Shown here: piece after piece, positions 3,888 through 63,566 of the stretch
Numbering within the stretch: the stretch's first letter is position 1
Layout: the number at the start of each line of letters is the position of its first letter
Assembly (NCBI RefSeq): GCF_000971215.1
Contig: NZ_BBMA01000011.1
Location: forward strand, 62,001-126,000
DNA: 64,000 bases
Reading direction: 5' to 3'
DNA from: Demequina silvatica
Lineage (GTDB): Bacteria; Actinomycetota; Actinomycetes; Actinomycetales; Demequinaceae
Program-made: the position numbers and the translations under genes
Notes under the pieces: generated by a model
The model's database searches: none
Told to the model about the DNA's origin: nothing
The model's input: only the letters and a program-made list of their open reading frames with translations

Positions 3888-3924
3888 GAGGGACGATGCG
3901 GCGGTCGCCGCCGCATCGTCCCTC
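3888..3924. terminator. Perfect 17-bp hairpin built from two copies of the dispersed word
   Basis: The left arm 3888-3904 and right arm 3908-3924 are perfectly complementary around the 3-nt loop TCG. Each arm contains the dispersed 10-mer (GGACGATGCG at 3891, CGCATCGTCC at 3912). It starts 9 nt after the folC1 stop and ends before the folC2 promoter. It has no U-tract, so termination is inferred from position and stability only. Confidence 0.6.
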
Positions 3925-3937
3925 GCCCCCGGCGTGA

Positions 3938-3949
3938 CAGACTTGGGAC
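3938..3949 (+). promoter_or_regulatory. Candidate leaderless promoter of folC2
   Basis: CAGACT (3938-3943) followed by six bases and the ATG at 3950. The surrounding TGACAGACT is identical to the one before ftsY. Confidence 0.5.
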
Positions 3950-5365
3950 ATGACCGACCTTGACCTCGGCGGCCTCAGCCTCGAGGAGGCCGAGCGCGAG
4001 ATCTACGCGCACATCGTCTCCCGCAACCCCGAGCACGACTTCGAACCCACGATCGACCGCGTCCGCGACGCGTGCGACCTCCTGGGCAGCCCTCAGCAGT
4101 CCTACCGCGTGGTGCACCTCACCGGCACCAACGGCAAGACCTCGACCGCACGGATGACCGAGTCGCTGGTGCGCGAGCTGGGCCTGCGCACCGGGCTGTT
4201 CACCTCGCCGCACCTCACCAGCGTGCGCGAGCGCATCCAGATCGACGGCGAGCCCATCGGGTCCGAGGACTTCGTGCGCCTGTGGCTCGACGTCGCGCCC
4301 ATCATCCACATGGTCGACGCGCGCTCGCTCGAGTCCGGCGGCCCCCGGATGAGCTTCTTCGAGGTGCTCACCGTGCTCGCCCTCGCGGCCTTCGCGGACG
4401 CGCCCGTCGACGTGGCGATCGTCGAGGTGGGCATGGGCGGCGTGTGGGACGCCACCAACGTGGTCGACGGCGAGGTGTCCGTCATCACGCCGATCGGCCT
4501 GGACCACCAGCAGTGGCTGGGCGACTCCGTGGTCGACATCGCGGCGGAGAAGTCCGCCATCATCAAGGACGGCGCCGCGACCGTGATCGCGCTCCAGTCC
4601 GACGCCGTGGTGCCCGTGCTCGAGAGCGCGCTCGCCGAGCGCGGGGCGCGCGGCTACTGGGAGGCCGAGGAGGGCGCCGAGGGCGCCCAGCTCGAGGTGC
4701 TCGACCGCCAGCCCGGCGTGGGCGGCCAGCTGGTCACCCTGCGCACGCCCGCCGCGACGTACGCCGAGATCTTCGTGCCGCTGTACGGCGCGCACCAGGC
4801 GCACAACGCGCTGCTCGCGCTCACGGCGGTCGAGCTCCTGCTCGCCTCCGGCGGCGAGCCCGTCGCGCTCACGGCCGAGGCCGTCGAGGCGGGCTTCGCG
4901 CACGTGAGCTCGCCCGGCCGCCTCGAGGCGGTCCGCACGTCGCCGCTCATCCTGGTCGACGCGGCGCACAACCCGCACGGCATCGACGCGATGGTCGACG
5001 CGCTCGAGGAGTCGTTCGCGTTCGAGACGCTCGTGGGCGTGGTGGGCATCCTCAGCGACAAGGACGCCGAGGGCATCCTCGCGGCGCTCGAGCCCGCGCT
5101 CGCGCACGTCGTGGTGACGGCGTCCCCGTCGCCGCGCGCGATCCCGGTCGAGGAGCTCGAGCGGCTCGCGATCGAGGTGTTCGGCGAGGACCGCGTCACC
5201 GCGACAGGCTCCGTGCCCGACGCGATCGACGCCGCCGTCCAGCGCGCGGAGCGCGACAACGACCTGGGCGCGGGCGTGCTGGTGGTCGGCTCCATCACGC
5301 TGGTCGCGGAGACCCGCATCCTCACCGGCGCGGACCGCCGCAAGGGCCAGGGACGCGCCCGGTGA
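3950..5365 (+). CDS. folC: Folylpolyglutamate synthase / dihydrofolate synthase, copy 2
   Basis: A 471-aa Mur-ligase-family enzyme, collinear with copy 1 from the N-terminus (shared S-L-x-E-A-E-R-E-I) to the C-terminus. P-loop L-T-G-T-N-G-K-T-S at 57-65; canonical I-G-L-D-H and A-E-K-S-A-I-I-K motifs, the latter bearing the lysine that is carbamylated in Mur ligases; E-V-G-M-G-G-V-W-D-A-T-N; V-D-A-A-H-N-P-H-G. This copy keeps the family consensus better than copy 1 and is the likelier housekeeping FolC. It overlaps the next gene by 4 bp (GTGA), so it heads a three-gene unit with two small membrane proteins. Confidence 0.88.
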   Translation: MTDLDLGGLSLEEAEREIYAHIVSRNPEHDFEPTIDRVRDACDLLGSPQQSYRVVHLTGTNGKTSTARMTESLVRELGLRTGLFTSPHLTSVRERIQIDGEPIGSEDFVRLWLDVAPIIHMVDARSLESGGPRMSFFEVLTVLALAAFADAPVDVAIVEVGMGGVWDATNVVDGEVSVITPIGLDHQQWLGDSVVDIAAEKSAIIKDGAATVIALQSDAVVPVLESALAERGARGYWEAEEGAEGAQLEVLDRQPGVGGQLVTLRTPAATYAEIFVPLYGAHQAHNALLALTAVELLLASGGEPVALTAEAVEAGFAHVSSPGRLEAVRTSPLILVDAAHNPHGIDAMVDALEESFAFETLVGVVGILSDKDAEGILAALEPALAHVVVTASPSPRAIPVEELERLAIEVFGEDRVTATGSVPDAIDAAVQRAERDNDLGAGVLVVGSITLVAETRILTGADRRKGQGRAR

Positions 5366-5784
5366 GCGCGCGTCCCCAGCGCTCCGCGGCGCTGATCTTC
5401 TGCCAGGCCGTCCTCGCGCTGCAGGCGTTCGCCGCGCTGTTCGCGGTGCTGGTCCTGTGGGGCCTCGACCGCGCGGGCGAGGTCTCGCTGCCCGGCGCGC
5501 TCCTGTGGGGCGGCGGCCTCGGGCTCGTGGTGGCCTTCGGCTACGCGGCGGGCCAGCAGGCCAAGCCGTGGGGCCGCTGGCTCGGCTGGGCGCTCCAGGT
5601 GCCCATGCTGGTCGCCGGGTTCATCGAGCCCACCATCGCGATCATCGGCGCGTGCTTCCTGCTCACCTGGATCGTGGGCGTGCGGCTCGGCACGCGGATC
5701 GACCGCGAGCGGGCCGAGCGCGACGCCGCCGCGGAGGCAGCGGGGGCTTCGTCGGAGCCCGCGTCCGGCGGCGAGCCCGCGTGA
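5362..5784 (+). CDS. DUF4233 small membrane protein
   Basis: A 140-aa protein with four predicted hydrophobic helices between residues about 8 and 112, then a charged Ala/Glu-rich cytoplasmic tail. The GTG start overlaps the folC2 stop (GTGA), indicating translational coupling. DUF4233 proteins are typically encoded directly after folC in actinobacteria; their function is unknown. No catalytic motif is visible. Confidence 0.75.
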   Translation: MSARPQRSAALIFCQAVLALQAFAALFAVLVLWGLDRAGEVSLPGALLWGGGLGLVVAFGYAAGQQAKPWGRWLGWALQVPMLVAGFIEPTIAIIGACFLLTWIVGVRLGTRIDRERAERDAAAEAAGASSEPASGGEPA

Positions 5785-6245: not shown

Positions 6246-6255
6246 CGCATCGTCC
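6246..6255. repeat. Dispersed word, reverse orientation, between convergent genes
   Basis: CGCATCGTCC, followed by C, exact copy in the 28-bp gap between the stop codons of the preceding gene and apt. No partner copy is near, so it does not form a hairpin here. Confidence 0.7.
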
Positions 6256-7890: not shown

Positions 7891-7900
7891 GGACGATGCG
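7891..7900. repeat. Dispersed word, forward orientation, between yqhA-like gene and smc
   Basis: Exact GGACGATGCG preceded by G, in the 78-bp intergenic space and upstream of the smc -10 element. Confidence 0.7.
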
Positions 7901-7956: not shown

Positions 7957-10900
7957 ATGCATCTCAAGACGCTGACGCTGCGCGGCTTCAAGAGCTTCGC
8001 GTCGGCGACCACCCTCGAGTTCGAGCCCGGCGTCACGTGCGTGGTGGGGCCGAACGGCTCGGGCAAGTCCAACGTGGTGGACGCCCTCGCGTGGGTGATG
8101 GGCGAGCAGGGCGCGAAGACGCTGCGCGGCGGGCAGATGGCGGACGTCATCTTCGCCGGCACGTCCGGCCGCGCGCCCTTGGGCCGCGCCGAGGTGTCCC
8201 TCACCATCGACAACACCGACGGCGCGCTGCCGATCGACTACACCGAGGTGACCATCAGCCGCACGCTGTTCCGCAGCGGCGGCTCGGAGTACGCGATCAA
8301 CGGGTCCGCGTGCCGCCTGCTCGACATCCAGGACCTGCTGTCCGACTCGGGCCTCGGGCGCGAGATGCACGTGATCGTGGGCCAGGGCCAGCTCGACGCG
8401 GTGCTCCGCGCGACGCCTGAGGACCGCCGCCACTTCATCGAGGAGGCCGCCGGCATCCTCAAGCACCGCCGCCGCAAGGACAAGGCGCTGCGCAAGCTCG
8501 ACTCGATGCAGGCCAACCTCACGCGCGTGCAGGACCTCACGGCGGAGATCCGCCGCCAGCTGGGCCCGCTGGGCAAGCAGGCCGAGGTCGCCCGCCAGGC
8601 GCAGCGCATCCAGGTGGACGTGCGCGACGCTCGCTCGCGGCTGCTCGCGGACGACATCGCGACCCTCACCGAGTCCATGTCGCAGGACAAGGCCGACGAG
8701 TCGGCGCTGCTCGAGCGTCGCGACGCCGTCGAGAAGGCGCTCGCGGAGGCGCGCGCGACCCTTGCCGAGCTCGAGCGCCTCTCCGCGGAGGCCGCGCCCG
8801 CCCTCACCAAGGCGAACGACACGTACTACCGGCTGAGCGCGATCCGCGAGCGGCTGCGCAACCTCTCCACTCTCGCGGAGGAGCGGGTGCGGATGCTGGG
8901 CACCGCCCACAGCGACGCGCCTCCCACCGACCTGGTGGACCTCGACGAGCAGGTGGAGCGCGCGCAGGCGGCCCGTAAGGAGCTCGACGCGGAGGTGGCC
9001 GCCGCGGCCGAGGAGCTCGAGGCCGCCATCGAGGCGCGCAAGGACGCCGAGGAGGCGGCCTTCCAGTCCGACCGCCACCACGCCAACCTGCTGAGGTCCG
9101 TGGCCGACCGCCGCGAGGGCGTGGCCCGCCTCGCGGGCCAGGTCGCCGCGAAGCGCTCGCGCGTCGAGTCCACGGAGGCCGAGATCGGCCGCCTCCAGGA
9201 GCAGCTCGCGGCCGCGGAGAAACGCGCCCACGAGGCCAACGTCGAGTTCCAGCACGTCGAGACCTCCGTCGCCACGGTGGACCCGGGGGAGGAGGACCTC
9301 GACGTCCAGCACGAGTCCGCGACCGAGGCGTGGGAGGCCGCGAAGGCCGCCGTCTCCGAGCTCAAGGACGCCCTCCACACGGCGATGCGCGAGCGTGACA
9401 CCTGGGCCGCCCGCGGCGAGGCCCTCGAGCTGTCGCTGGTGCGCAAGGACGGCGCCGGCGCGCTGCTCGCGAGCGGGACCCGCGCCGTGACCGGCTCGGT
9501 TGCCTCGCTGATCGAGATCGCGCCCGGCGCGGAGGACGCGATCGCCGCCGCGCTCGGCGGGCTCGCCGACGCGCTTGCCGTGGGCACGGTCGAGGACGCC
9601 GTCGACGCGATCCGCTGGCTGCGCGACGAGGACGCGGGCCGCTCCTGGTTCATGGTCGCGGACGCGACCGCGTCCCCCGAGAACCCCGACGTCGCGCTGC
9701 CCGAGGGTGCCGCGTGGGCCTCCACGCTGGTGTCCGGCCCCGCCGGGATCGTCGACACCGTCCGCGCGTTCGTGTCCGGCGTCGCCGTGGTCGAGGACCT
9801 CGCCGCCGCCCGCGCGCTGGTCGCCGCGCACCGCGACGTGGTCGCCGTCACCCGCCGCGGCGACCTGCTGGGCAGCCGCAACGCCTCCGGCGGCGCGGGC
9901 GACGCCCCGAGCGTGCTCCACGTCCAGGCCGCGTTCGACGACGCCCGCGAGAAGCGCGACGCCGCCGCGACCCGCGTCGAGCAGACCGAGCAGCGCCTGC
10001 GCGCGGCGGAGGAGACCGAGTCCGAGACCCGCGGCCACCACGAGCGCACCCTCGCGCGCCTCACCGAGGCCGACGCCCGGATGGCCGCCGCCGCCGAGAA
10101 GTTGGGCCGCCTGGGCGCGCAGGCCCGCGGCGCCAAGGCCGAGGCCGAGCGCTTCACCGAGCAGCTCGAGCAGGCCCACGGCCGCATGAAGGCCGACGAG
10201 GACGAGCTCGCGAGCCTCACCGACCGCCTGGCCGCCGCGCAGGCCGAGCCCGAGCAGTTCGAGGCGGATACGCGCGCGGCGCAGGAGCGCCGCGACGACG
10301 ACGAGGCCGACGCCCGCACCGCGCGCGCCAAGGAGACCGAGGCCCGCCTCGCGCTGCGCACCGCCGAGGAGCGTGCCCGTGCCCTCGCGGCCCGCGCCGA
10401 GAGCCTGGAGAGGGCCGCCGTCGCGGAGCGCGAGGCCCGCGTCCGAGCGGAGGCCGCCGCCGCACGCCGCGAGCGTCAGGCGCAGGCCGCGCGCGAGGTC
10501 ATCGCGGGCAGCCGCGATGCGATCGCGCTGATCGACGTCTCCGTCCAGCAGGCGGACGATGCGCGCGCGGCCGTCGAGGCCGAGCGCGCCGAGCGCACGG
10601 GCCGGCTCGCGGAGGTGCGCCGCAGCGTCGACGAGCTCTCGACCGAGCACGCCCGACTCACCGACGACGCGCACCGCGACGAGGTCGCCCGCGCCCAGCA
10701 GAACGTCCGCCTCGAGCAGCTGCGCCAGCGCGCGGTCGACGACCTGGGCATGGACCCCGACCGGCTGGTCGAGGAGTTCGGCCCGCACCTGGGCGTGCCC
10801 GTGGTCGATTCCGAGGCGCCCGCGCGCGAGGACGGCGAGGACGAGGACGCGGAGCCCGCGACCGTGCCCTACGTCCGCCAGCAGCAGGAGGCGCGCCTGC

Positions 10901-12013: not shown

Positions 12014-13189
12014 GTGGACGTTGCATGGATCCCAGGTGACAGTGACCTCCTCGTGGCGATCGTCGCGGGGCTCGTGGTGCTTGGCGGCGTGGGCGCCGCG
12101 GTGCTCGGCAAGGCGCGCCAGGCGCCTCCGCGCGAGGCGCCCCCGCGACGGGACGATGCGCCGGTCGCGGCCCCCGCCCCGGTCGAGGAGGCCGCGGGCG
12201 AGGTGGAGGCGCCGGAGGCGCCCGCCCCCGTCGAGGAGACGGCGCCCGCCATCGAGACGCCCTCGGTCGAGACGCCCGAGGCCGTCGACCACCGCTTCGG
12301 CCGCCTGCGCCGCCGCGTGGGCGCGACGTTCGGCCAGAACCTGCTCGCGATCTTCCGCCGCGGCTCGCTCACCGAGGACGACTGGGACGAGCTCGAGGAG
12401 ACCCTCCTCATGGCCGACGTGGGCGCCGGCGCGACCGACGCGCTCCTCGAGGACCTGCGCACCCGCCTCAAGGCGGAGCCCGACGGCAACCCCAGGGAGC
12501 TGCTCCGTGCGGCCCTGCTCGACGTGGTGGACCCGGCGCTCGACCGGTCCCTCGCGCTCGGCGCCGCCGGCGACGGCGAGCTCCACAGCGCGATCGTGGT
12601 GGGCGTGAACGGCGTGGGCAAGACCACCACGGTGGGCAAGCTCGCGCGCGTCCTGGTCGCGGAGGACCGCACCGTGGTCCTGGGCGCGGCGGACACGTTC
12701 CGCGCGGCCGCCGCCGACCAGCTCGAGACCTGGGGCTCGCGCGTGGGAGTGCCCGTGGTGCGCGCCCACGTCGACGGCGCGGACCCGGCGTCCGTCGCGT
12801 ACGAGGCCGCCGACCGCGCCCGCGCGGACGCCGCCGAGGTGCTGCTGGTCGACACCGCCGGCCGCCTGCAGAACAAGCAGGGGCTCATGGACGAGCTCGG
12901 GAAGATCGTCCGCGTCGTGTCGAAGGTGAGCGCCCCCAAGGAGGTGCTGCTGGTGCTCGACGCCACCACCGGCCAGAACGGCCTCACCCAGGCCCGCGTG
13001 TTCGGGCAGGTGGCGCCCCTCACCGGGATCGTGCTCACCAAGCTCGATGGCACCGCGAAGGGCGGGATCGTGCTCGCGGTGCAGCGCGAGCTGGGCGTGC
13101 CGGTGAAGTTCGTCGGTCTCGGCGAGGGCGCCGACGACCTCGCGCCGTTCGACCCCGAGGGCTTCGTCGACTCCCTGCTGGGCGACTGA
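12014..13189 (+). CDS. ftsY: Signal recognition particle receptor FtsY
   Basis: A 391-aa SRP GTPase that docks ribosome-SRP complexes at the Sec translocon. The N-terminus has one hydrophobic segment (about residues 9-30), then a Pro/Ala/Glu-rich disordered linker to about residue 90, then the NG domain: G1 G-V-N-G-V-G-K-T-T-T, D-T-A-G-R-L-Q-N, and T-K-L-D-G-T-A-K-G-G. The membrane segment instead of an amphipathic A domain is common in actinobacteria. The GTG at 12014 is preferred to the in-frame GTG at 12008 because of promoter spacing. A copy of the dispersed word at 12151 encodes Asp-Asp-Ala in the linker. Its partner Ffh is encoded 3.6 kb downstream. Confidence 0.93.
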   Translation: MDVAWIPGDSDLLVAIVAGLVVLGGVGAAVLGKARQAPPREAPPRRDDAPVAAPAPVEEAAGEVEAPEAPAPVEETAPAIETPSVETPEAVDHRFGRLRRRVGATFGQNLLAIFRRGSLTEDDWDELEETLLMADVGAGATDALLEDLRTRLKAEPDGNPRELLRAALLDVVDPALDRSLALGAAGDGELHSAIVVGVNGVGKTTTVGKLARVLVAEDRTVVLGAADTFRAAAADQLETWGSRVGVPVVRAHVDGADPASVAYEAADRARADAAEVLLVDTAGRLQNKQGLMDELGKIVRVVSKVSAPKEVLLVLDATTGQNGLTQARVFGQVAPLTGIVLTKLDGTAKGGIVLAVQRELGVPVKFVGLGEGADDLAPFDPEGFVDSLLGD

Positions 13190-18438: not shown

Positions 18439-19512
18439 ATGGCCCTCCACCTCACGGGCCCCGTGGTCGTCGGCGATGACGACGTCCGCGCGGAGGCCTG
18501 GGTGGTGGACGGGTTCGTCACGTACGAGCGGCCCGAGGCCGCCGTGCGCCACGCGCTCGACGGCTGGGTGCTGCCGGGGCTGGTCGACGTCCACTGCCAC
18601 GTGGGCCTCGACAGCGGGGGAGCGGTGGACGCCGACCTCGCGCTCAAGCAGGCCCTGGTCGACCGTGACGCGGGCACGCTGCTCATCCGCGACGCCGGCT
18701 CGCCGTCCGACACCCGCTTCCTCGACGGCGTCACCACCGCGCCGCGGGTGATCCGCGCGGGCCGGTTCATCGCGCGCCCCAAGCGCTACCTGCGCCACTA
18801 CGCGCGCGAGATCGAGGTGGTGGACCTCCCGGCCGTGATGGCGCAGGAGGCCCGCAAGGGCGACGGCTGGGTCAAGCTCATCGCCGACTGGATCGACAGG
18901 GACCACGGCGACCTCACCCCCCTGTGGCCGGACGATGCGCTGGCCGAGGGCATCGCGGCGGCCCACGAGGCCGGGGCGAGGGTGACGGCGCACACCTTCG
19001 CGACGGAGACCATCGACGGGCTGCTCGACGCCGGCGTCGACTGCATCGAGCACGGCACCGGCATGACCGCCGACCATATGGCGGAGGCCGCGCGCCGCGG
19101 CCTTCCCGTGGTGCCCACGATGATGCAGGTCGCGAACTTCGAGGGCTTCGCCGCCCAGGCGGAGGAGCGGTTCCCGGCGTACGCCGCCCGCATGCGGGCC
19201 ATGCACGAGCGCCGCTTCGCGCACGTCCGCGCGCTGTACGAGGCGGGCGTCCCGCTGCTGGTGGGCACCGACGCGGGCGGCACGCTCGGACACGGCGGGC
19301 TGCCGGCGGAGGCGGCGCTCATGGTCGCCGCGGGCATCCCCGACGCCGAGGTGGTCGCGATGGCGTCCTGGCGCGCACGAGCGTTCCTGGGTGCACCCGG
19401 CCTCGAGGAGGGCGCGCCTGCGGACCTGGTGATCTACGGCGAGGACCCGCGCGCCGGCATCCGCGCCCTCGCCTCCCCGCGCCACGTGGTGCTGCGCGGG
19501 GCCCTGGTCTGA
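18439..19512 (+). CDS. Amidohydrolase family protein
   Basis: A 357-aa metal-dependent hydrolase of the amidohydrolase superfamily. D-V-H-C-H-V near residue 51 supplies the H-x-H metal ligands after the first strand; later histidines occur in A-H-T-F-A-T-E and I-E-H-G-T-G, and the final metal aspartate is in G-T-D-A-G-G. The arrangement resembles imidazolonepropionase/prolidase-like members; substrate unknown. It begins one base after the ffh stop, a linkage often kept in actinobacteria. A copy of the dispersed word at 18930 reads Asp-Asp-Ala. A near-match (CGCATCGTTC) follows the stop at 19513. Confidence 0.8.
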   Translation: MALHLTGPVVVGDDDVRAEAWVVDGFVTYERPEAAVRHALDGWVLPGLVDVHCHVGLDSGGAVDADLALKQALVDRDAGTLLIRDAGSPSDTRFLDGVTTAPRVIRAGRFIARPKRYLRHYAREIEVVDLPAVMAQEARKGDGWVKLIADWIDRDHGDLTPLWPDDALAEGIAAAHEAGARVTAHTFATETIDGLLDAGVDCIEHGTGMTADHMAEAARRGLPVVPTMMQVANFEGFAAQAEERFPAYAARMRAMHERRFAHVRALYEAGVPLLVGTDAGGTLGHGGLPAEAALMVAAGIPDAEVVAMASWRARAFLGAPGLEEGAPADLVIYGEDPRAGIRALASPRHVVLRGALV

Positions 19513-20113: not shown

Positions 20114-21513
20114 CCGCCGTCCAGCACCGCACCGCCGTGGTCCCGAGCCACGCGGCTCCCGCGGCCGCCGAGCGCCGCGCACGCGCCGCGCGCCGCAGCC
20201 GCCGCCGCGACACGATCGAGGCGGCCGCGTGGCTCGCGGGCGTGGGCGGCCTCGCGTTCATGCTCGCCTCGGGCACCGTCGACGTCACCACGGTCGGCGG
20301 CCTGCTCACCACGCTCGGGCGCATCGCGGGGATCGCCGCGTCGACCATGATCATGGCGCAGCTCATCCTGATCGCGCGGATCCCGCTGGTCGAGCGCGCC
20401 CTCGGCCACGACCGCGGCGCCCGCCTTCACGGGCAGCTGGGACGCCTCGGCTTCGTGGTGATCATCGCGCACATCGTGCTCCTGATCGGCGGCTACGCCC
20501 TGCCGACGCAGACGGGGCTGCTCGCGCAGGCGTGGGCCTTCGCGGTCGGCTACGGCGGTCCCATGTTCATGGCGAGCGTCGGGTTCGTGGTGCTGTGCGC
20601 CGTGGTGGTGACGTCCTACGCGATCGTGCGCCGGCGCTGGCGGTACGAGACCTGGCACGCCGTCCACGTCTTCAGCTACCTCGCGGTCGGGCTGTCCATC
20701 CCGCACCAGCTCACCGACGGCCAGACCTTCGCGACCATGGGACCCGCCTGGTGGTACTGGGTGATCCTGTGGACCGTCGCCGTGGGCGGGCTGCTCGCGT
20801 ACCGCGTGGTGCGGCCGCTCGTGCGCTTCCGGCGCCACCGCATCCGTGTGACCGCCGTGGGCACGCTGCCGGACGGCTCGACCGTCATCGCGCTGCACGG
20901 CCGCCGCCTCACCCGCCTGGGCGCGAGGGGCGGGCAGTTCCTGCTCTTCCGCTTCCTCCAGCGCGACATGTGGGGCCAGGCGCACCCGTACTCGCTCTCG
21001 CGCACCGTCCGCGACGGATGGATGCGCATCACGGTGAAGCCGCTCGGCGACGGATCCGCAGCCCTGCGCACCCTGCGCCCGGGCACGCGCGTCATGGTCG
21101 AGGGCCCCTTGGGGGTCTTCACCGACGCGTCACGCTCGGGGGACCACCTGGTCCTCGCCGGCGCGGGCGTCGGCATCACGCCCATCCTCGCGCTGCTCGA
21201 GGACGCGGCATTCCGGCCCGGCGGCTGCACCGTCGTCGTGCGCGCCAGCACCGAGGCCGAGATCCCGCACCTCGAGGAGTTCCGCGAGCTCGCCGCCGCG
21301 CGCGGCGCGACCCTGCATGTCCTCACCGGGCACCGCGGGGACGGCTGGGCCCCCGCATCGTCCCCCGTCACGCTCGCGCGGCTGGTGCCCGCGATCGCCG
21401 GCGCGGACGTGTTCGCGTGCGGCCCCGTCCCGTGGGTGCGGGCGGTGATGGACGATGCGGCGGTCGCCGGGGTGCCCGCGCGCCGCCGGCACGCGGAGGA
21501 GTTCGCCTGGTAG
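20110..21513 (+). CDS. Ferric-reductase-like membrane flavoprotein 1
   Basis: A 467-aa membrane oxidoreductase. The N-terminal half has about six helices of a ferric reductase-like domain with paired heme histidines (L-H-G-Q-L ... I-A-H-I with 13 residues between, and V-H-V-F-S-Y ... I-P-H-Q with 12 between). The C-terminal half is a ferredoxin-NADP reductase-type module: H-P-Y-S-L-S for FAD, G-V-G-I-T-P-I for NAD(P)H, and C-G-P-V-P-W. No 2Fe-2S domain follows. It probably passes electrons from cytoplasmic NAD(P)H across the membrane to the exported FMN proteins encoded beside it. Two copies of the dispersed word lie in it (21354 read Ala-Ser-Ser; 21450 read Asp-Asp-Ala). Confidence 0.82.
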   Translation: MTAVQHRTAVVPSHAAPAAAERRARAARRSRRRDTIEAAAWLAGVGGLAFMLASGTVDVTTVGGLLTTLGRIAGIAASTMIMAQLILIARIPLVERALGHDRGARLHGQLGRLGFVVIIAHIVLLIGGYALPTQTGLLAQAWAFAVGYGGPMFMASVGFVVLCAVVVTSYAIVRRRWRYETWHAVHVFSYLAVGLSIPHQLTDGQTFATMGPAWWYWVILWTVAVGGLLAYRVVRPLVRFRRHRIRVTAVGTLPDGSTVIALHGRRLTRLGARGGQFLLFRFLQRDMWGQAHPYSLSRTVRDGWMRITVKPLGDGSAALRTLRPGTRVMVEGPLGVFTDASRSGDHLVLAGAGVGITPILALLEDAAFRPGGCTVVVRASTEAEIPHLEEFRELAAARGATLHVLTGHRGDGWAPASSPVTLARLVPAIAGADVFACGPVPWVRAVMDDAAVAGVPARRRHAEEFAW

Positions 21514-23377: not shown

Positions 23378-24004
23378 ATGCGCACCTCCCGGGCCGTGGT
23401 GGTCGCCGGCGGCTGCGCCGCGATCCTCGGCGCGGGCTGGTCCGTCGCGCCCAAGGAGCTGCCCACGCTCGACCTGGTCGCCCCCTCGAGCCCCGAGCCG
23501 AGCGTCACCGCGAGCGGGAGCGCGGCTCCGTCCGCCACCGCGGAGCCGGAGCCCACCCCGTCGATCACGTGCGAGCCCGACGACAGCGGCGACGACGAGG
23601 ACGACGACAAGGACCTCTCCGAGGACGACGACTGCGCGATCTCCACCCCCGAGCCTGCGGCATCCGAGACCGCGGCGGACCCGGCCCCGAGCGCCACGGC
23701 GACCGCCGCGCCCGACCCGGCGCCCGCATCGTCCACCCACGACGGCCCCGTCGTGACGAACGCCCGCGGCGACTACCAGGCCCGCATCACCGTGGTCGAC
23801 GGCGAGGTCACGGACGTCCAGGCGATCGTCGCCGGGACGCAGGACGCGGAGTCCATCACCATCAACGCGCGTGCGATCCCCGAGCTGCGCGACAAGGTCC
23901 TCGCCGCGCAGACGTGGGACGTCGAGGCCGTGAGCGGCGCGTCCTTCACGTCGCCCGCGTTCACCGAGTCGCTGCGCGGCGCGTTCGAGGACGCCGGCCT
24001 GTGA
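23378..24004 (+). CDS. Exported FMN-binding domain protein 3
   Basis: A 208-aa protein with an N-terminal hydrophobic segment (residues 5-22), a long Pro/Ala/Ser/Asp-rich linker including an acidic run (about residues 68-85), and a C-terminal FMN-binding domain closely similar to that of the preceding lipoprotein (shared A-G-T-Q-D-A-E-S and N-A-R-A-I-P-E-L-R-D-K-V). Flavinylation motif A-V-S-G-A-S-F-T-S. It starts 4 bp after the lipoprotein stop and overlaps the ApbE gene. A copy of the dispersed word at 23725 is read Ala-Ser-Ser in the linker. Confidence 0.78.
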   Translation: MRTSRAVVVAGGCAAILGAGWSVAPKELPTLDLVAPSSPEPSVTASGSAAPSATAEPEPTPSITCEPDDSGDDEDDDKDLSEDDDCAISTPEPAASETAADPAPSATATAAPDPAPASSTHDGPVVTNARGDYQARITVVDGEVTDVQAIVAGTQDAESITINARAIPELRDKVLAAQTWDVEAVSGASFTSPAFTESLRGAFEDAGL

Positions 24005-46466: not shown

Positions 46467-47617
46467 CCCGCACCGTCTCCCTGCTGGGGTCGACCGGTTC
46501 GATCGGCACCCAGGCCCTCGACGTGGTCGCGCGCCACCCCGACCGCCTCGAGGTGGTCGCGCTCGCCGCCGGCGGCTCCGACCCGGGTGCGATCGTCGCC
46601 CAGGCGCGCGCGCATCGTCCCCGCTACGTGGCCGTGGCACGCGAGTCCGTCGCCGCCGAGATCGCCGACGCCCTTCCGGGCGTCGAGGTCAGGGGAGGGG
46701 ACGATGCGGTGGTCGAGGCCGCGCGGATGGGCGCCGACGTGGTGCTCAACGGGATGACCGGCTCGGTGGGCCTGCGTCCCACGCTCGCGGCTCTCGAGTC
46801 CGGCTCGACGCTCGCGCTCGCCAACAAGGAGTCGCTGGTCGCCGGCGGCGCCCTGGTGCTGGCGGCGAAGCAGCGCGAGGACCAGATCGTGCCCGTCGAC
46901 TCCGAGCATTCCGCGCTCGCGCAGTCGCTGCGTTCCGGCGCGCACGGCGAGGTGCGGCGGCTGGTGGTGACCGCGTCGGGCGGCGCCTTCCGGGGACGCT
47001 CGCGCGCGTCGCTCGCGCGGGTCACCCCTGCGGACGCCCTCGCGCACCCGAACTGGGACATGGGCCCGGTGGTCACCATCAACTCGGCGTCGATGGTGAA
47101 CAAGGCGCTCGAGGTCGCGGAGGCGCACCTGCTGTTCGGGATCGCGATGGACCGGATCGACGTGGTGGTCCACCCGCAGTCGATCGTGCACTCGATGGTC
47201 GAGTTCGTCGATGGCGCGACCATCGCCCAGGCCTCGCCGCCCGACATGCGCCTGCCCATCGCGCTGGGGCTGAGCTGGCCCGACCGCCTCGCGGACGTGG
47301 CGCCGCGGCTCGACTGGACCCACGCGCAGTCTTGGACGTTCGAGCCGCTCGACGAGGACGCGTTCCCCGCGATCCGCCTCATGCGCGACGCGGTGGCGGC
47401 GTCCGCGCTCCACCCCGCCGTGTTCAACGCCGCGAACGAGGAGTGCGTGCAGGCGTTCGTCGACGGCGTGCTGCCGTTCCTCGGGATCGTGGACACGGTC
47501 CGGCGCGTTGTCGAGGAGTACAGCGCCCCCGCGGAGGTCAGCCTCGAGCAGGTCGACCGCGCGGAGGCGTGGGCGCGCGCCCGGGCGAGGGACGCGATCG
47601 CGGAAGTGAGAAGGTAG
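46463..47617 (+). CDS. dxr: 1-deoxy-D-xylulose 5-phosphate reductoisomerase
   Basis: A 384-aa enzyme of the MEP pathway, making 2-C-methylerythritol 4-phosphate. NADPH loop G-S-T-G-S-I-G-T-Q near the N-terminus; metal-binding D-S-E-H-S-A-L; A-S-G-G-A-F-R and the C-terminal A-N-E-E-C-V motif. Two copies of the dispersed word, in opposite orientation, lie 78 bp apart within it (46611, read His-Arg-Pro; 46699, read Asp-Asp-Ala). Together with ispG downstream it marks an MEP isoprenoid cluster. Confidence 0.96.
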   Translation: MTRTVSLLGSTGSIGTQALDVVARHPDRLEVVALAAGGSDPGAIVAQARAHRPRYVAVARESVAAEIADALPGVEVRGGDDAVVEAARMGADVVLNGMTGSVGLRPTLAALESGSTLALANKESLVAGGALVLAAKQREDQIVPVDSEHSALAQSLRSGAHGEVRRLVVTASGGAFRGRSRASLARVTPADALAHPNWDMGPVVTINSASMVNKALEVAEAHLLFGIAMDRIDVVVHPQSIVHSMVEFVDGATIAQASPPDMRLPIALGLSWPDRLADVAPRLDWTHAQSWTFEPLDEDAFPAIRLMRDAVAASALHPAVFNAANEECVQAFVDGVLPFLGIVDTVRRVVEEYSAPAEVSLEQVDRAEAWARARARDAIAEVRR

Positions 47618-55777: not shown

Positions 55778-57862
55778 ATGCATCAGAGGGGGAACCGGCT
55801 GCGCTCTCGCGCCGCCATCGGGGGGCTGGCGGCGGCCGTGATGCTCGCGACCAGCCTGATCGCGACGCCCGCGGGCGCGGCCACGGATGATCCACGCGTG
55901 GACACCGTGTACCAGTTCGCGACAGACCAGTACACGGATCCGGGCGGCCACCTGAACCTGCAGACGCGCTCGATCGCCGAGCTGGGCGACCGGATCACGC
56001 TGGCAGGCGAGGCCCGTACGCTCGACACCATCCAGGTGACTCTGCAGAGCTTCGCGTGCCAGACCGGCGGCTGGAACAACGAGAACTGCACCAGCGCGGC
56101 CAACGCCAGCTTCAGCCACCCGGTCACGGTCAACGTGTACGCGGTGGGCGCCGGCGGCGCGGTGGGCGACCTGCTCGCCACCCTGACCCGCCAGGTCAAC
56201 ATCCGCTACCGCCCGAGCTCCCAGCCGGGCACGTGCGTGGACAACCCGGACACGAGCTTCTACGTCGAGTCGGCCTGGTGGTACGACGCGGCGAGGGGAC
56301 GATGCGTCGCGAACTACGTGCAGACGGTCACCTTCGACCTGCACAACCAGGGCGTGGAGCTGCCCACCGAGGTGATCGCCGCGGTGACCTTCCCGACCAG
56401 CCGGTTCGGCTCGGGGCTCGCCGTGGGCGGGCCCTGGGACAGCATCGACGTGTCGATGGCGGACGAGGCGCCCGTGCGGGGCACCAACGTCAGCCAAGGC
56501 GTGCTCTACTTCGACTCGAACGATGACGTGAACTTCCCGGCCGAGGACGAGACGCCCGAGCTGGGCGTGTTCAAGGCCGCGAGCGGGTGGCAGTTCGACA
56601 ACAACAACTACCGCACGCCGCTCATCACGATCACTGCGACGCCGCAGACCGACCGGGTCCTGCCCGCCACGTTCGTGGGCGGCTTCGAGCAGGGCACCTC
56701 GGCGGGGCTGGGGCTGGTGACCAGGCAGAACGACGGGCTGCTCGCGTCCTCGGGCTGCTGGTACGCCGAGGCTCCGGTGACCAACTACGGCACCCACAAC
56801 GGCACCGGCACGGTGACCATGGCCTACGGGGGCTACGCGACGGAGTTCCCGTCGGGCGGCTACACCACGTCGGCCGACTTCTACCTCGATGCGGACGCGG
56901 CCTCGGGGCAGTTCACCTGGGCCCACGCGGTCAACGGCACCGACGGCCAGCTGCAGCGGAGCTTCATGTTCTACGCGGGCGCGGACGGCTCCGGGACGTG
57001 GACGGTGGGCACCGGGCTGACCGCCGCGACCACCGCGCCGTACCGCAGCAACTACGGCACCAGCCCTCTCTTCATCGAGGAGTCCGGGTGGTACACGCTG
57101 CGTCACCGGCTGTACGCCCAGGGCGGGCTGCTGTACGCGGACCTGTCGGTGCTCGACGACTCGGGGGCGGTGCTCGACACCTGGACCCTGGGCGGGAACT
57201 CTCAGGACCTGGTCCCGACGCTCGTGGGCGGCAACCGGTACGGGTGGCTGATCAACAACTCGTACGCGGGCCTGCGGATGGACAACGTGGTGCTCGGCGC
57301 ACCGCGGCCCACCAACGCGTGCGTGCAGACGTTCACCACCGCGCCGACCCCGACCATCACGGGCGTGCCGAAGGCGGGCGTGATCCTTCGCGCGCAGACC
57401 GGCGACTGGGCGCCCGAGCCGTCGGAGTTCGCGTACCAGTGGATGCGCAACGGCGTGCCGATCGCGGGCGCGACGGCAGCCTCGTACAAGGTCTCATCGA
57501 AGGACCGCGGCAAGAAGCTCCGCGTCGACGTGACCGCGTCGCGGCCCACCTTCGTCGACCGCGAGGTGCGTTCGGCCCCGCTGTACGTACCGAAGGTCTG
57601 GGCAACGCCGGACCGTCCGCCGCTCAAGGGCACCGCGGCGGTAGGAAGCCGGCTCTCCACGGTGGTCCCGGCCTGGTCGCCCAAGCCGGACACCGTCGCC
57701 TACCAGTGGATGCGTGACGGCAGGCCCATCTGGGGCGCGAAGTCGTCGACCTACGTGGTGAAGAAGGCAGACCGCGGCCACCTGATCAAGGTGAGGATCA
57801 CCGCGAAGAAGACGGGCTACATCAAGTCCGTGGTCTTCTCGAAGGCCCGAACCATGTCGTAG
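55778..57862 (+). CDS. Large secreted protein with C-terminal Ig-like repeats
   Basis: 694 aa. Signal peptide about 1-35 (S-L-I-A-T-P-A-G-A-A). Residues 36-515 form one or more beta-rich domains that I do not recognise, with aromatic-rich segments (W-W-Y-D-A, N-N-N-Y-R-T) and scattered cysteines. Two C-terminal repeats (about 520-605 and 608-694) share G-x-x-L-x-x-x-x-x-x-W-x-P, Y-Q-W-M-R and D-R-G, the actinobacterial Ig-like repeat seen in many surface proteins. No SLH, sortase or membrane anchor is visible. ATG 55778 is preferred to 55760 because of GGGGGAA upstream. The word at 56297 is read Gly-Arg-Cys here, off the usual frame. Confidence 0.75.
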   Translation: MHQRGNRLRSRAAIGGLAAAVMLATSLIATPAGAATDDPRVDTVYQFATDQYTDPGGHLNLQTRSIAELGDRITLAGEARTLDTIQVTLQSFACQTGGWNNENCTSAANASFSHPVTVNVYAVGAGGAVGDLLATLTRQVNIRYRPSSQPGTCVDNPDTSFYVESAWWYDAARGRCVANYVQTVTFDLHNQGVELPTEVIAAVTFPTSRFGSGLAVGGPWDSIDVSMADEAPVRGTNVSQGVLYFDSNDDVNFPAEDETPELGVFKAASGWQFDNNNYRTPLITITATPQTDRVLPATFVGGFEQGTSAGLGLVTRQNDGLLASSGCWYAEAPVTNYGTHNGTGTVTMAYGGYATEFPSGGYTTSADFYLDADAASGQFTWAHAVNGTDGQLQRSFMFYAGADGSGTWTVGTGLTAATTAPYRSNYGTSPLFIEESGWYTLRHRLYAQGGLLYADLSVLDDSGAVLDTWTLGGNSQDLVPTLVGGNRYGWLINNSYAGLRMDNVVLGAPRPTNACVQTFTTAPTPTITGVPKAGVILRAQTGDWAPEPSEFAYQWMRNGVPIAGATAASYKVSSKDRGKKLRVDVTASRPTFVDREVRSAPLYVPKVWATPDRPPLKGTAAVGSRLSTVVPAWSPKPDTVAYQWMRDGRPIWGAKSSTYVVKKADRGHLIKVRITAKKTGYIKSVVFSKARTMS

Positions 57863-57943: not shown

Positions 57944-58996
57944 TTACGGAGCGAGCGCGGCGGAGAGGAAGCCCACCACCTGGTCACGCCACGCGTGCGG
58001 ATCGGTACGGAGGGCCCCCGCATGCGCCGCGCCCGGTACCGTCCACACGTCGACGTCCGGGTCGACGTCCGCGAGGGACGATGCGGCGGTCGCCTCGTCC
58101 GGCACGTCGCCGGCGACGATCAGCAGCGTTGGCGCGGTGGACCGGGCCGCGGCGCCCGCGAGCGGCCCGGGCCTCGCAGCAGGGGAGAGCAGTTCGAGCA
58201 GCACGTCGCGCTCGAGGTCCATCGCACGCTGGATCGCGCCCGCGGGGCCGCCCGGCAGCCAGGCGGCCTTGTCCTCCGCGGTGCGTCCGGTCGCCCCCTC
58301 CGCGACCACCGCCTGGATCCGCGCATCGTCCCCCGCCGCGCCCAGCGCCTCCTCGCCGCCCATCGAGATGCCGACCACGCCGATCCTGTCGGGGTCGACA
58401 CCCGGCAGCGCCTCGACCGCGTCGACGGCCGCGCGCACGTCGCGCTCGCCCCACCAGCCCAGTTCGTGCGGCGACCCTCCGGACGCGCCGTGACCGCTCG
58501 CGTCGAGCATCAGCACCCCGTAGCCCGCGTCGCGGAGCACCTCGGCATGCTCCACGACCGCGGCGCGGGTCGATCCGGAGCCGTGCAGCAGCACCAGGGC
58601 CGCGCCGTCGCGCGAGGGCAGCCACCACGCCGCGAGCTCGACCCCGTCGCCCGCCTCGACGGTCAGGTCGGACGCGCCGTCCGGACGGACGGCGCTGGAC
58701 GGCGCGAGCGCCGGGTGCGCCGCCCAGGTCGCCACCCCGACGGGGAGGGCGAGGATCGCGACCACGGGCAGCGCGGCGACCAGCACCAGGGTCCGGGACC
58801 ACCAGCGGCGAGCGACCCGCGTCGCGATCCACACGAGCGCCGCCAGCGCGGCGATCAGCGCGACCGTGGCGACCAGCGCGACCGGCGAGAGGCCCGTGCG
58901 GGCCAGTCGCGCGGGCCCAAGCGCCGCGCACGCGCCCGCGAAGCTCGCCAGCACCACGGCCGCGCCCGCGGCCGCCACGACCGTCCATGCGCGCAT
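57944..58996 (-). CDS. Membrane-anchored alpha/beta hydrolase
   Basis: A 350-aa protein. Three N-terminal transmembrane helices (about 4-24, 38-58, 68-90), then an alpha/beta hydrolase domain: oxyanion L-L-H-G-S-G, nucleophile elbow G-I-S-M-G-G, and a late histidine in P-G-A-A-H-A-G. Substrate unknown. The start is the ATG with GAGGGGG upstream on its strand. Two copies of the dispersed word lie in it (58076 read Ala-Ser-Ser, 58322 read Asp-Asp-Ala in the gene's frame). Opposite in strand to its neighbours and divergent from proS. Confidence 0.82.
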
Positions 58997-59072: not shown

Positions 59073-59082
59073 CGCATCGTCC
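59073..59082. repeat. Dispersed word, reverse orientation, before proS
   Basis: Exact CGCATCGTCC in the 114-bp divergent region, 15 bp upstream of the proS -10. Confidence 0.7.
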
Positions 59083-59110: not shown

Positions 59111-60913
59111 ATGCTTCGCATGTCCACTCTCTTCCTGCGCACCCTGCGCGAGGACCCCGCCGACGCCGAGGTCGCGTCGCACAAGCTGCTCGTCCGTGCC
59201 GGCTACATCCGCCGCGCCGCACCCGGCATCTACACCTGGCTCCCGCTGGGCCTGAAGGTGCTCGCCAAGGTCGAGGCGATCGTGCGCGAGGAGATGGACG
59301 CCGCCGGCGGCCAGGAGGTCCACTTCCCGGCGCTGCTGCCGCGCGAGCCCTACGAGGCCACGAACCGGTGGACCGAGTACGGACCCAACCTGTTCCGCCT
59401 CAAGGACCGCAAGGACGCCGACTACCTCCTCGCGCCCACGCACGAGGAGATGTTCACGCTGCTGGTGAAGGACCTGTACTCCTCGTACAAGGACCTGCCG
59501 CTGACGATCTATCAGATCCAGACCAAGTACCGTGACGAGGCTCGCCCCCGCGCGGGCCTGCTGCGCGGCCGCGAGTTCATCATGAAGGACTCGTACAGCT
59601 TCGACGTCACGGACGCCGGCCTCGACGCGTCGTACGCGGCGCAGCGCGCGGCCTACGTGCGGATCTTCGACCGGCTGGGACTCGAGTACGTGATCGTGAC
59701 CGCGACGTCCGGCGCGATGGGCGGCTCGAAGTCGGAGGAGTTCCTGTCGCCCACCGAGGTGGGGGAGGACACGTTCGTGCGCTCGCCCGGCGGCTACGCC
59801 GCGAACGTCGAGGCCGTCACCACGCCCGTCCCCGACGCCCTGCCCTGGGACGATGCGCCCGCCGCCCACGTCGAGGACACCCCCGACACCCCGACCATCG
59901 ACACGCTGGTCGCCGCCGCGAACGCCGCGCACCCGCGCGCCGACCGCGAGTGGACCGCCGCGGACACCCTCAAGAACGTGGTGCTCGCGCTCACGTCACC
60001 CACGGGGGAGCGCTCGCTCCTGGTGGTGGGCGTGCCCGGCGACCGCGACGCGGACATGACCCGGCTCGAGGCCGCCCTGGCGCCGTTCGGCGTCGAGGCC
60101 GCCAACGAAGAGGACTTCGCCAAGCACCCCGAGCTCGCGAAGGGCTACATCGGCCCCGGCGCGCTCGGCCCGCAGGCCCGCCCCGAGGGCGTGGAGCGGG
60201 GCTCCGAGGAGGACCGGGCGATCCCGTACCTGCTCGACCCGCGCATCGTCCCCGGCACCCGCTGGATCACCGGCGCCGACGTCCACGGCAAGCACGTGTT
60301 CGAGCTCACCATGGGCCGCGACTTCACCGCGGACGGCACCATCGAGGCCGCCAGCGTGCGCGCCGGTGACCCGTCGCCCGACGGCTCCGGGCCGCTGGAG
60401 CTCGCGCGCGGCGTCGAGATCGGCCACATCTTCCAGCTGGGCCGCAAGTACGCCGAGGCGCTCGACCTGCGCGTGCTCGACGAGAACGGCAAGCAGCAGG
60501 TGGTCACCATGGGCTCGTACGGCATCGGCGTCACGCGCGCCGTGGCGCTGCTCGCGGAGAACAACCACGACGAGCTGGGCCTGGTCTGGCCCATCCAGGT
60601 CGCGCCGTACCAGGTGCACGTGGTCGCGACCGGCAAGGACGACGCGGTGTTCGAGGCCTCCGCGCGGCTCGCGGGAGAGCTCGAGGCCGCGGGCATCGAG
60701 GTCTGCTACGACGACCGCTTCAAGGTCTCGCCCGGCGTGAAGTTCAAGGACGCCGAGCTGCTGGGCGCGCCCTTCATCCTGGTGGTGGGCCGCGGCCTCG
60801 CCGAGGGCACCGTCGAGCTCAAGGTCCGCGCGGCGGGCACCAGCGAGGCGCTTCCGGTGGACGATGCGGCGGCCGCTGTGATCGCCCGCGTCCAGGAGGC
60901 GCTGGCCGGCTGA
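59111..60913 (+). CDS. proS: Prolyl-tRNA synthetase, bacterial type
   Basis: A 600-aa class II synthetase. N-terminus [15 protein letters not shown]; class II motif 2 R-D-E-A-R-P-R ... [16 protein letters not shown]; the INS editing insertion (about 215-390) that removes mischarged alanine; motif 3 G-S-Y-G-I-G-V-T-R; and a C-terminal anticodon domain. Three copies of the dispersed word (59848, 60242, 60859) lie in it, two read Asp-Asp-Ala, the most of any gene here. Confidence 0.96.
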
Positions 60914-62005: not shown

Positions 62006-62032
62006 GACATGCCCCTGCGAGGGTCCTAGAAT
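62004..62032 (+). promoter_or_regulatory. Promoter of the rimP-nusA-infB operon
   Basis: ATGACA (62004-62009), 17-bp spacer, TAGAAT (62027-62032). This is the best conventional promoter seen in the window; it gives a leader of about 50 nt with GGGAGG before rimP. Confidence 0.65.
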
Positions 62033-62087
62033 GTGGGTCGACCGAATTTCAGGAACGGAACGCGCGCCGCGCGTGGGAGGCGATGCC

Positions 62088-62552
62088 ATGGACATCACGA
62101 GCCGCATCATCGAGCTCGCCGCGCCGGAGGCCGAGGCCGTTGGGCTGGTGCTCGAGGGAGTCGAGGTGACCGCCGCAGGCAAGCGCTCGCGGGTCGTGGT
62201 CACGCTGGACCTTCCGGAGACCGAGGTGGGCAGCGCCGACCTCGACGCCATCGCCGAGGCCTCCCGCCGCATCGGCGCCGCCCTGGACGAGGCGAACGTG
62301 CCGTCCACGCCGTACGTCCTCGAGGTCTCGACCCCCGGCACCGACCGCGTCCTCACCGAGCGCCGCCACTTCATGCGCGCCCGGACCCGGTTGCTCGAGC
62401 TGCGCCTCGCGGACGGCACGCTCACGGGACGCCTCACCGACGTCGACGGGGACGAGCTGGTGCTCGACGTCGACGGCGAGGAGCGTCGCGTCCCGGTCGC
62501 GCAGGTGACGGACGGTCGCATCGTCGTGGAGTTCAAGAGGCTGGGAGAGTAG
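62088..62552 (+). CDS. rimP: Ribosome maturation factor RimP
   Basis: A 154-aa 30S assembly factor. G-L-V-L-E-G-V-E-V, the central L-E-V-S-T-P-G-T-D-R-V-L and the C-terminal SH3-like domain (L-V-L-D-V-D-G-E) fit. ATG 62088 lies 8 bp after GGGAGG. First gene of the nusA operon. Confidence 0.93.
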   Translation: MDITSRIIELAAPEAEAVGLVLEGVEVTAAGKRSRVVVTLDLPETEVGSADLDAIAEASRRIGAALDEANVPSTPYVLEVSTPGTDRVLTERRHFMRARTRLLELRLADGTLTGRLTDVDGDELVLDVDGEERRVPVAQVTDGRIVVEFKRLGE

Positions 62553-62558
62553 TAGGAC

Positions 62559-63566
62559 ATGGACATCGACATGCAGGCCCTGCGGGGCCTCGAGCGCGAG
62601 AAGGACATCCGTCTGGACGTGCTGGTCGACGCGATCGAGCAGGCGCTCGTCTCCGCGTATCACAAGACCCCGGGCGCGTACCGGCACGCCCGCGCGCACC
62701 TCGACCGCGTCACCGGCAAGGTGACCATCCTCGCCCGCGAGGACGTCGAGGAGGGTCAGGACCCCGCCGAGCTCCCCGAGTTCGACCACACCCCGGCCGA
62801 CTTCGGGCGGATCGCCACGTCGACCGCGCGTCAGGTGATCTTCCAGCGCCTGCGTCAGGCGGGGGACGATGCGGTGCTGGGCGAGTACGCCGGGCGTGAG
62901 GGCCACCTGGTGTCGGGTGTCATCCAGCAGTCCTCGGACCCGAAGAACGTGCACGTGGACCTGGGCGACGTCGAGGCGATCCTGCCGCCGCACGAGCAGG
63001 TCCCCACCGAGGTGTACGTCCACGGCGAGCGCCTCAAGGGCTACGTCCTCGACATCTCCCGCGGCGCCAAGGGCCCGTCCATCACGCTGTCGCGCACCCA
63101 CCCCGGCCTGGTGCGCAAGCTGTTCGAGCTCGAGGTGCCCGAGATCGCCGACGGCACCGTCGAGATCATGAGCCTCGCCCGCGAGGCCGGCCACCGCACC
63201 AAGATCGCCGTGCGCGCGACGGTCCCGGGCGTCAACGCCAAGGGCGCGTGCATCGGCCCGATGGGCTCGCGCGTCCGCGCCGTCATGAGCGAGCTGCGCG
63301 GAGAGAAGATCGACATCATCGACTGGGACGACGACCCGGCCACGTTCGTGGGCAACGCGCTGTCGCCGTCGCGCGTCGTGTCGGTCGCCGTGGTGGACGA
63401 GGAGGCCCGCGCCGCGCGCGTGGTGGTCCCGGACTTCCACCTGTCGCTCGCGATCGGCAAGGAGGGGCAGAACGCCCGCCTCGCGGCACGCCTCACGGGG
63501 TGGCGCATCGACATCCGTTCGGACGAGCAGCCCGACGTGCCCGGGCGAGCCGGATCCGGGCGCTGA
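62559..63566 (+). CDS. nusA: Transcription termination/antitermination protein NusA
   Basis: A 335-aa elongation factor modulating pausing, termination and antitermination. N-terminal RNAP-binding domain 1-105, S1 domain (about 110-180, G-H-L-V-S-G-V-I ... V-H-V-D-L-G), two KH domains ([11 protein letters not shown] and [12 protein letters not shown]). It lacks the C-terminal acidic repeats of E. coli, normal for actinobacteria. A copy of the dispersed word at 62864 reads Asp-Asp-Ala. Confidence 0.96.

Follow-up and report, generated by a model that had tools for sequence, protein, structure and literature searches.

A dispersed word in the Demequina silvatica genome

The 64-kb stretch of Demequina silvatica DNA analysed here (hereafter the window) holds, among its genes, dprA and a comM-like gene for a Mg-chelatase/ChlI-type AAA protein, and it carries a dispersed DNA word, the 10-mer GGACGATGCG, for which exact matching on both strands gives 28 copies (Table 1; coding and intergenic labels are from our own open reading frame (ORF) caller). 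The original prediction had listed 27 copies; all of its coordinates are correct, and the reverse copy at 22248 had been overlooked. The eighteen extensions to the 11-mer GGGACGATGCG, which has an extra 5' G, the eleven intergenic copies, the near balance of orientation (15 forward and 13 reverse) and the one-mismatch copies named at 32726, 40407 and 55621 were all reproduced, the intergenic count by independent gene calls. Its claim of over-representation also stands, with a corrected expectation: the 0.3 copies first given rested on single-base composition, whereas 100 dinucleotide shuffles of the window give a mean of 0.99 and a maximum of 4, and an order-3 Markov model gives 0.66.

Table 1. 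Copies of the word GGACGATGCG and other features of the window
Feature	Position	Strand	Location	Remarks
Word	3891..3900	+	intergenic	inverted pair with 3912-3921, 11-nt gap; hairpin of -38.1 kcal/mol
Word	3912..3921	-	intergenic	second arm of the pair with 3891..3900
Word	6246..6255	-	intergenic	
Word	7891..7900	+	intergenic	
Word	10554..10563	+	coding	
Word	12151..12160	+	coding	
Word	18930..18939	+	coding	
Word	21354..21363	-	coding	
Word	21450..21459	+	coding	same in 4/4 aligned relatives
Word	22248..22257	-	coding	absent from the earlier list
Word	23725..23734	-	coding	same in 4/4 relatives
Word	24799..24808	-	intergenic	same in 4/4 relatives
Word	25722..25731	+	intergenic	
Word	27957..27966	-	intergenic	same in 4/4 relatives
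Word	32805..32814	-	intergenic	
Word	34653..34662	+	intergenic	
Word	34725..34734	-	intergenic	
Word	43921..43930	+	coding	
Word	46611..46620	-	coding	
Word	46699..46708	+	coding	
Word	56297..56306	+	coding	
Word	58076..58085	+	coding	
Word	58322..58331	-	coding	
Word	59073..59082	-	intergenic	
Word	59848..59857	+	coding	
Word	60242..60251	-	coding	
Word	60859..60868	+	coding	
Word	62864..62873	+	coding	
comM-like gene	35132..36619	+		Mg-chelatase/ChlI-type AAA protein; Pfam PF01078, PF13541, PF13335
dprA	36616..37764	+		Pfam PF02481, E 1.2e-63
DUF2510 protein	1406-2071	-		Pfam
1456-aa protein	51228-55598	+		

The most over-represented 9- to 12-mers of the window relative to the order-3 Markov model are GGACGATGCG and its sub- and superwords, and sites with no or one mismatch to it number 61 against 20.7 expected. 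In the whole genome (G000; 2,918,791 bases in 17 contigs), GGGACGATGCG occurs 884 times (458 and 426 by strand) against a single copy of the reversed control; the order-3 Markov expectation of 0.14 in the 64-kb window corresponds to about 6 when scaled to the genome, so that in the genome-wide check suggested earlier the word is neither near expectation nor limited to the window. Reversed words are weak controls for GC-rich words, and synonymous-codon shuffles are the better control. An Rfam scan of the window returned no families above threshold, and a known RNA element was rejected accordingly. The word is real and far above chance, and the original observation was right but understated.

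Placement was analysed in 504 kb (17%) of the genome, comprising the window and other stretches with 453 genes called by our own ORF caller. Intergenic DNA makes up 12% of this sample and holds 90 of the 264 copies, a density of 1.46 per kb that is 3.7-fold that of coding sequence (174 copies, 0.39 per kb). Within intergenic DNA the density is 2.46 per kb between convergent genes, 1.73 between tandem genes and 0.86 between divergent genes. The 174 coding copies compare with a mean of 16.9 and a maximum of 23 in 50 within-gene shuffles of synonymous codons, an approximately tenfold excess, and a rerun with 20 shuffles gave a mean of 18.6 and a maximum of 28. On the coding strand 87 of them read x-Asp-Asp-Ala (x-D-D-A), and on the other strand 50 read x-A-S-S and 29 R-I-V-x. 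Low-GC genes are poor in words (0.05 per kb). The longest word-free stretch spans 20.6 kb (C12:105443-126043, L205/L206; GC 0.64). It is a low-GC polysaccharide island that encodes Wzz, glycosyltransferases and a Wzy-type ligase along with two transposases (Mutator-family and DDE).

The conserved sequence extends beyond the 10-mer. A G stands at +12 in 86% of copies and at +13 in 80%; next come [C/T], a C (66%) and a G (57%). With the G-rich 5' flank this makes an extended motif of about 17 bp, GGGGACGATGCGssGG[T/C]CG. Among the 264 copies, six plus/minus pairs (12 copies) lie with a gap of at most 30 nt, where we estimate about one from density; all six fold as hairpins, with energies between -34 and -44 kcal/mol. 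One of these pairs is that at 3891-3921 of the window, and one lies within a gene. Named genomes hold at least 101 loci with inverted word pairs, and 89 of the 101 listed are from Demequina.

Five blocks of 20-200 kb were compared by strand, and none shows an orientation bias of the word (57/50, 45/52, 15/13, 9/9 and 6/8; all p >= 0.54), which bears out the earlier contrast with Chi and KOPS (FtsK-orienting polar sequences). Gaps of 110-600 bp between copies are under-represented, 32 against 55.7 for random placement. As a separate observation, neighbouring words in the 504-kb sample face in opposite directions more often than not (161 versus 98, p 1e-4; 147 versus 92 for gaps above 100), and the same tendency is found, more weakly, in eight samples of Demequina species with the dialects B, C or D described below (137 versus 106) and in relatives that share the D. 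silvatica dialect, A (49 versus 36).

Dialects, losses and turnover among relatives

The genus survey covered 44 genomes (D. silvatica and 43 others). The A 11-mer reaches 120-884 copies in 16 of them and 1-52 in the remaining 28, of which 20 carry GGCCGATGC at 409-2018 copies and the other eight at 68-282; the reversed control for GGCCGATGC gives 34-139 across all 44 genomes. Five of the 16 A genomes also contain 447-664 copies of GGCCGATGC, so the dialects are not always pure. Word discovery in samples of 40-60 kb from 14 low-count species (40-140 kb per species overall) revealed a word with a CGATGC core in nine: GGCCGATGCC (often followed by GTGG), GGCCGATGCG or (G)GCCGATGCT. Within genes, the B, C and D words lie 4- to 30-fold above synonymous shuffles (23 versus 2.5 in G015, 35 versus 5.9 in G024 and G039 together, 22 versus 1.1 in G016, 12 versus 0.4 in G010, 17 versus 4.0 in G042, 15 versus 0.8 in G021, and 45 versus 8.8 in G008 and G036 together), and the second G of the +12/+13 pair is enriched in the nine B, C and D species as well.

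Dialects with the core CGATGC (GGCCGATGCC, and forms in ..GCG and ..GCT) are thus present in congeners, and two dialects beyond these are probable. Candidate words, each with few copies, are GCCGACGCT in G003 (20 coding copies versus 3.0 in shuffles), GCCCGACGCT in G012 (9 versus 0.9, with 8 intergenic copies) and the weaker GCCGATGCC in G018 (16 versus 4.1). Eight of the 44 genomes are low for both surveyed words; they include G003 and G012, with their other candidate words, G001 and G027, and the little-sampled or unsampled G005, G009, G013 and G032.

No such word was found in 140 kb of G027 and 120 kb of G001, where A- and B-type words stay within the shuffle range (GGACGATGC 5 versus 4.5 and 6 versus 4.8) and the A 11-mer occurs genome-wide 15 and 40 times (reversed control 3 and 0). 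In a tree of PilB, PilT, PilC and AlaS from 19 genomes, the seven A genomes together with G012, G027 and G001 fall on one side of a single branch (support 0.994). Within this group G027 is the sister of G038 (1.000) and G001 that of G004 (0.935), and G038 and G004 are both A species. They carry 510 and 438 copies of the A 11-mer, and none of 11 aligned word sites of G038 is identical in G027, nor any of nine of G004 in G001 (random 10-mers 0.19 and 0.18). Since the two word-free species sit beside word-bearing sisters and the word sites there are not conserved, the word seems to have disappeared on at least two occasions. In G001 (L178, L179, L189, L239-L241) we also observed a different word, TCGCGCTCG, in genes 51 times versus 18.8 in shuffles, with one intergenic copy.

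At aligned sites in the window, the D. silvatica words are identical in four close relatives at 16/25, 16/22, 12/20 and 5/13 sites, compared with identity frequencies of 0.43, 0.31, 0.33 and 0.30 for random 10-mers in the alignments; three window copies sit where none of the four relatives aligns. Of the 80 aligned sites 31 have changed, 26 by substitution and five with a gap. The word turns over inside aligned sequence and not by insertion, the pattern of gain and loss that the original prediction had proposed to look for among relatives. A search for the other dialect's word at the same site, in four comparisons of A with B or C, found no support: it occurred at only 1 of 28 aligned sites.

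Outside the genus, the word GGMCGATGCNNNGG was counted in an order sample of 396 genomes, 34 of them Demequina, and in a phylum sample of 396 genomes with D. silvatica as the sole Demequina. In the order sample it occurs 267-1104 times in 28 Demequina genomes and 28-104 times in six (G001, G003, G009, G012, G018, G027); the maxima outside Demequina are 262 in G351 (4.2 Mb, control 37) and 136 in G159 (9.4 Mb, control 48). Among the phylum genomes it is high in D. silvatica only, the next count being 107. G351, from another family (family f11, genus g13), holds 943 copies of GGCCGATGCC against 74-222 in 37 congeners; a 260-kb sample has 45 coding copies versus 12.2 in shuffles and three intergenic copies, with no intergenic enrichment, and we do not count this genome as having the same system as Demequina. 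A palindromic TGAACGTTCA repeat is also among the top words of G351 (L220-L222, L265-L274).

Pilus and competence genes

The D. silvatica genome contains a type IVa pilus locus in the order pilB-pilT-pilC-pilA-two minor pilin genes-a gene for a 619-aa protein-pilD-pilM-pilN-pilO, flanked by genes that we read as alaS-ruvX-mltG-aroE and aroC-aroK-aroB. PilB, PilT, PilC, PilD, PilM and three pilins have Pfam matches, while PilN, PilO and the 619-aa protein have none and are named by position. PilB, PilT, PilC and PilA are present in all 19 compared loci. The comEA-comEC genes adjoin a gene read as holA. The comM-like gene and dprA are associated with competence in other bacteria, yet are widely conserved. 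From its composition, this gene set would permit transformation, without explaining which species carry words.

Close to what we read as a GNAT gene and metE lies the gene of an orphan pilin (L245:3317-3727, minus strand, with 19 further loci, L246-L264). The protein is about 137 aa long, is a type IV pilin by sequence and has two cysteines that are invariant across the 19 copies aligned. In its size and its location outside the operon it resembles ComP. The word-free G027 and G001 keep an open, full-length copy (56% and 41% identical to that of D. silvatica); in nine further genomes of the genus the orphan pilin could not be traced with certainty. Separately, the C-terminal part of the DUF2510 protein in the window resembles the globular end of some Demequina pilins, and the D. 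phytophila copy of this protein (L097) gave tblastn matches to two orphan pilins, with 39-44% identity over 77 aa.

The uptake-sequence reading and its alternatives

Judging from the genome signature alone, the best reading of the word, and a likely one, is that it serves as the core of an uptake sequence for DNA. The natural-transformation machinery, which may consist of the type IVa pilus with ComEA and ComEC or of another pilus, would include a surface receptor that binds the extended motif of about 17 bp, and binding would lead to preferred uptake and recombination of DNA from the same or closely related species. Fragments with the word would then replace alleles lacking it, so that words build up in both orientations wherever coding and regulation tolerate them, through molecular drive and/or selection. 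A change in receptor specificity would let the word drift to a new dialect, and a loss of specific uptake would let the words decay. Over-representation, placement, the extended motif, the dialects, the losses and the presence of the gene set were computed here, and it is from these that we infer an uptake bias, a receptor and a drive. An uptake signal survives best among the candidates named originally because of the lack of orientation bias, the dialects, the intergenic and in part inverted-pair placement, and change by substitution; of the others, a HIP1-type word and REP-like insertion are contradicted, and nucleoid-protein and methylase sites are less likely.

The word shares much of the genomic signature of two Gram-negative systems, the Neisseriaceae DNA uptake sequences (DUS) and Pasteurellaceae uptake signal sequences (USS), which, according to the excerpted text of a 2025 paper (PMC12616744), belong to the only families known to have such recognition; membership of the same functional class would be a prediction from this resemblance. 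Excerpts of PMC3630211, PMC2397512, PMC7811141 and PMC1939737 report 1,465-1,892 copies of DUS or USS, 65% of USS within genes, a non-coding excess, about 10% of copies as inverted repeats, no orientation bias and dialects; even spacing is printed in the literature but disputed in the excerpt of PMC1939737 (the comparison also draws on parts of PMC5217627). The Demequina word agrees with these in its number of copies, its share within genes (66%), its excess in non-coding DNA, its unbiased orientation and its dialects; it has fewer inverted pairs (12 of 264 copies), only partially even spacing and no gene-end bias.

The DUS of Neisseriaceae, with ComP as receptor, likewise are dispersed by hundreds to thousands of copies in permissive and intergenic sites, have dialects, and form inverted pairs at terminators (PMC3630211 and PMC2397512, in part), of which the six hairpin pairs in our sample are reminiscent. 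They are absent from recently acquired genes (PMC2397512, in part); our corresponding observations are one word-free island, in a genome whose low-GC genes are word-poor in general, and three window copies at places where none of the four relatives aligns. In Neisseria the length of recombination tracts is reported to match the spacing of the words (PMC2397512, in part). In contrast to DUS, the Demequina sequence is unrelated, its motif is longer and spaced, its host is a GC-rich actinobacterium, some species lack the word, inverted pairs are few in species with dialects B, C or D, and the system is a candidate one, known from sequence. With the USS of Pasteurellaceae, whose predicted receptor is ComN/PpdA, the word shares a core with a conserved spaced flank, unbiased orientation and a similar gene share (about 65% in genes with a non-coding excess, and 174 of 264 here; PMC12616744, PMC7811141 and PMC1939737, all excerpts). 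The sequence is again unrelated, the flank is GG where USS have AT tracts, the host belongs to the Actinomycetota, and the gene-end bias described in the excerpt of PMC2346458 is missing in Demequina. Micrococcus luteus, which undergoes natural transformation with Flp/Tad pili, is also an actinobacterium with comEA-comEC (PMC6370729 and PMC4322843, in part), whereas Demequina has a type IVa pilus locus in addition; a text search of the M. luteus transformation paper (PMC4322843) did not find the term 'uptake sequence'.

Several results weigh against an uptake sequence. Only 2 of 272 copies in eight samples with dialects B, C or D start a plus/minus pair with a gap of at most 30 nt, and close pairs in the nearest A relatives are divergent as often (4) as they are convergent (3). 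Intergenic enrichment in the B, C and D species is weaker, 1.3- to 2.4-fold, and in G021 it is reversed (0.11 intergenic versus 0.30 coding per kb). The overall variation of gaps is the same as for random placement (coefficient of variation 1.04), and no bias of words toward gene ends was found in the 504-kb sample. At about 78% identity, words are kept at 5/18 and 6/22 sites versus 0.19 for random 10-mers, barely above background. Pilus and com genes do not separate word-bearing from word-free species: ComEC is present in 43 of 44 genomes of the genus, T2SSE-family ATPases in all 44 and a comEA match in all 30 loci. Conversely, G351 has many copies of GGCCGATGCC, yet nothing in it matched a type IVa pilin. 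Among the matches listed from open-licence PubMed Central (PMC) papers, none reported uptake or transformation in Demequina; one paper (PMC8339730) contains both the genus name and 'natural transformation', each a single time.

The receptor candidates add to this list, for no compared candidate tracks dialect at the sequence level. The minor pilins of the pil operon are not supported: their cassette is of at least two kinds, both found with dialect A (D. silvatica, G025, G022 and G038 versus G004, G020 and G006). PilA is not supported either, being 58% identical between the dialect-A sisters D. silvatica and G025 (L180:10637-11047, minus strand, versus L191) while their other pilus proteins are 88-99% identical, perhaps because the major pilin has diversified or been exchanged. 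Nor is the orphan pilin, which is retained in word-free species and whose identity to the D. silvatica copy does not follow dialect, being 41% and 44% in the dialect-A species G004 and G023 but 63% in G016 (C) and 57% in both G008 (B) and G010 (D).

Among the rival explanations, a site that selection has spread for binding by an intracellular nucleoid protein or chromosome organiser, or by a replication or repair factor, would suit the scarcity of gaps of 110-600 bp, the prevalence of opposite-facing neighbours and the long, non-palindromic motif, although PMC1939737, in the excerpt, argues against a comparable view of USS. There is no strand polarity, and a word that is missing in sister species and shifts its spelling around a constant core would be odd for a housekeeping factor; we therefore regard such a site as unlikely, while granting it some weight. 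A polar recombination or segregation signal like Chi or KOPS would equally be a short, frequent and species-specific word, but the unbiased orientation, the intergenic preference and the hairpin pairs make it very improbable. We consider a site recognised by a DNA methyltransferase or a restriction system, as proposed for HIP1, slightly less so but still improbable: the word is no palindrome, and its motif of about 17 bp, which is long for a methylase site, includes an internal spaced GG. Such a site would be in keeping with the excerpted literature, in which cyanobacterial HIP words are linked to orphan methyltransferases and Campylobacter uptake needs methylated DNA. HIP1 of cyanobacteria is similarly a short word over-represented genome-wide in part of a clade; unlike the Demequina word it is a palindrome, GCGATCGC, and a HIP1-type palindrome was rejected here as GGGACGATGCG differs from its own reverse complement.

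Copying by transposition, as a selfish element or terminator family resembling repetitive extragenic palindromic (REP) sequences or miniature inverted-repeat transposable elements (MITEs), is suggested by the copies that form hairpin pairs near gene ends. Nevertheless, copies share no common sequence beyond about 17 bp, 174 of 264 lie within genes and only five of the 80 aligned sites in the four relatives involve a gap, so this origin is highly improbable. Codon or peptide usage in a GC-rich genome, in the form of the x-Asp-Asp-Ala strings that the original prediction had flagged as a possible explanation, would account for half of the coding copies at face value; synonymous shuffles, which leave 16.9 of the 174, the third of all copies that is intergenic, the 79 coding copies that read as ASS or RIV on the other strand and the two relatives that remain at shuffle level leave this explanation with almost no credibility.

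Returning to the uptake sequence, we lean toward a more specific proposal, held a little less firmly: a third DUS system that evolved independently and is the first from a monoderm (Gram-positive) phylum, comprising four or more dialects within a single genus (GGACGATGCG, GGCCGATGCC, GGCCGATGCG and GCCGATGCT), at least two losses and a receptor that is none of the compared pilins. No uptake sequence in Actinobacteria or Demequina was among the matches listed from open-licence PMC papers. If the proposal is right, a culturable actinobacterial genus would largely present the same signature, with several dialects and with sister species that have and lack the word, and Demequina would allow the question of why uptake sequences exist, whether through selfish drive, mate recognition or genome repair, to be tested in an independent origin. 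The reading also predicts natural transformation in Demequina.

One further feature of the window lies apart from these subjects. A related-locus search with one window protein gave no match, and a scan of genome contigs by peptide patterns found no relatives of the 1456-aa protein, which combines carboxypeptidase-regulatory-like repeats with S-layer homology domains.

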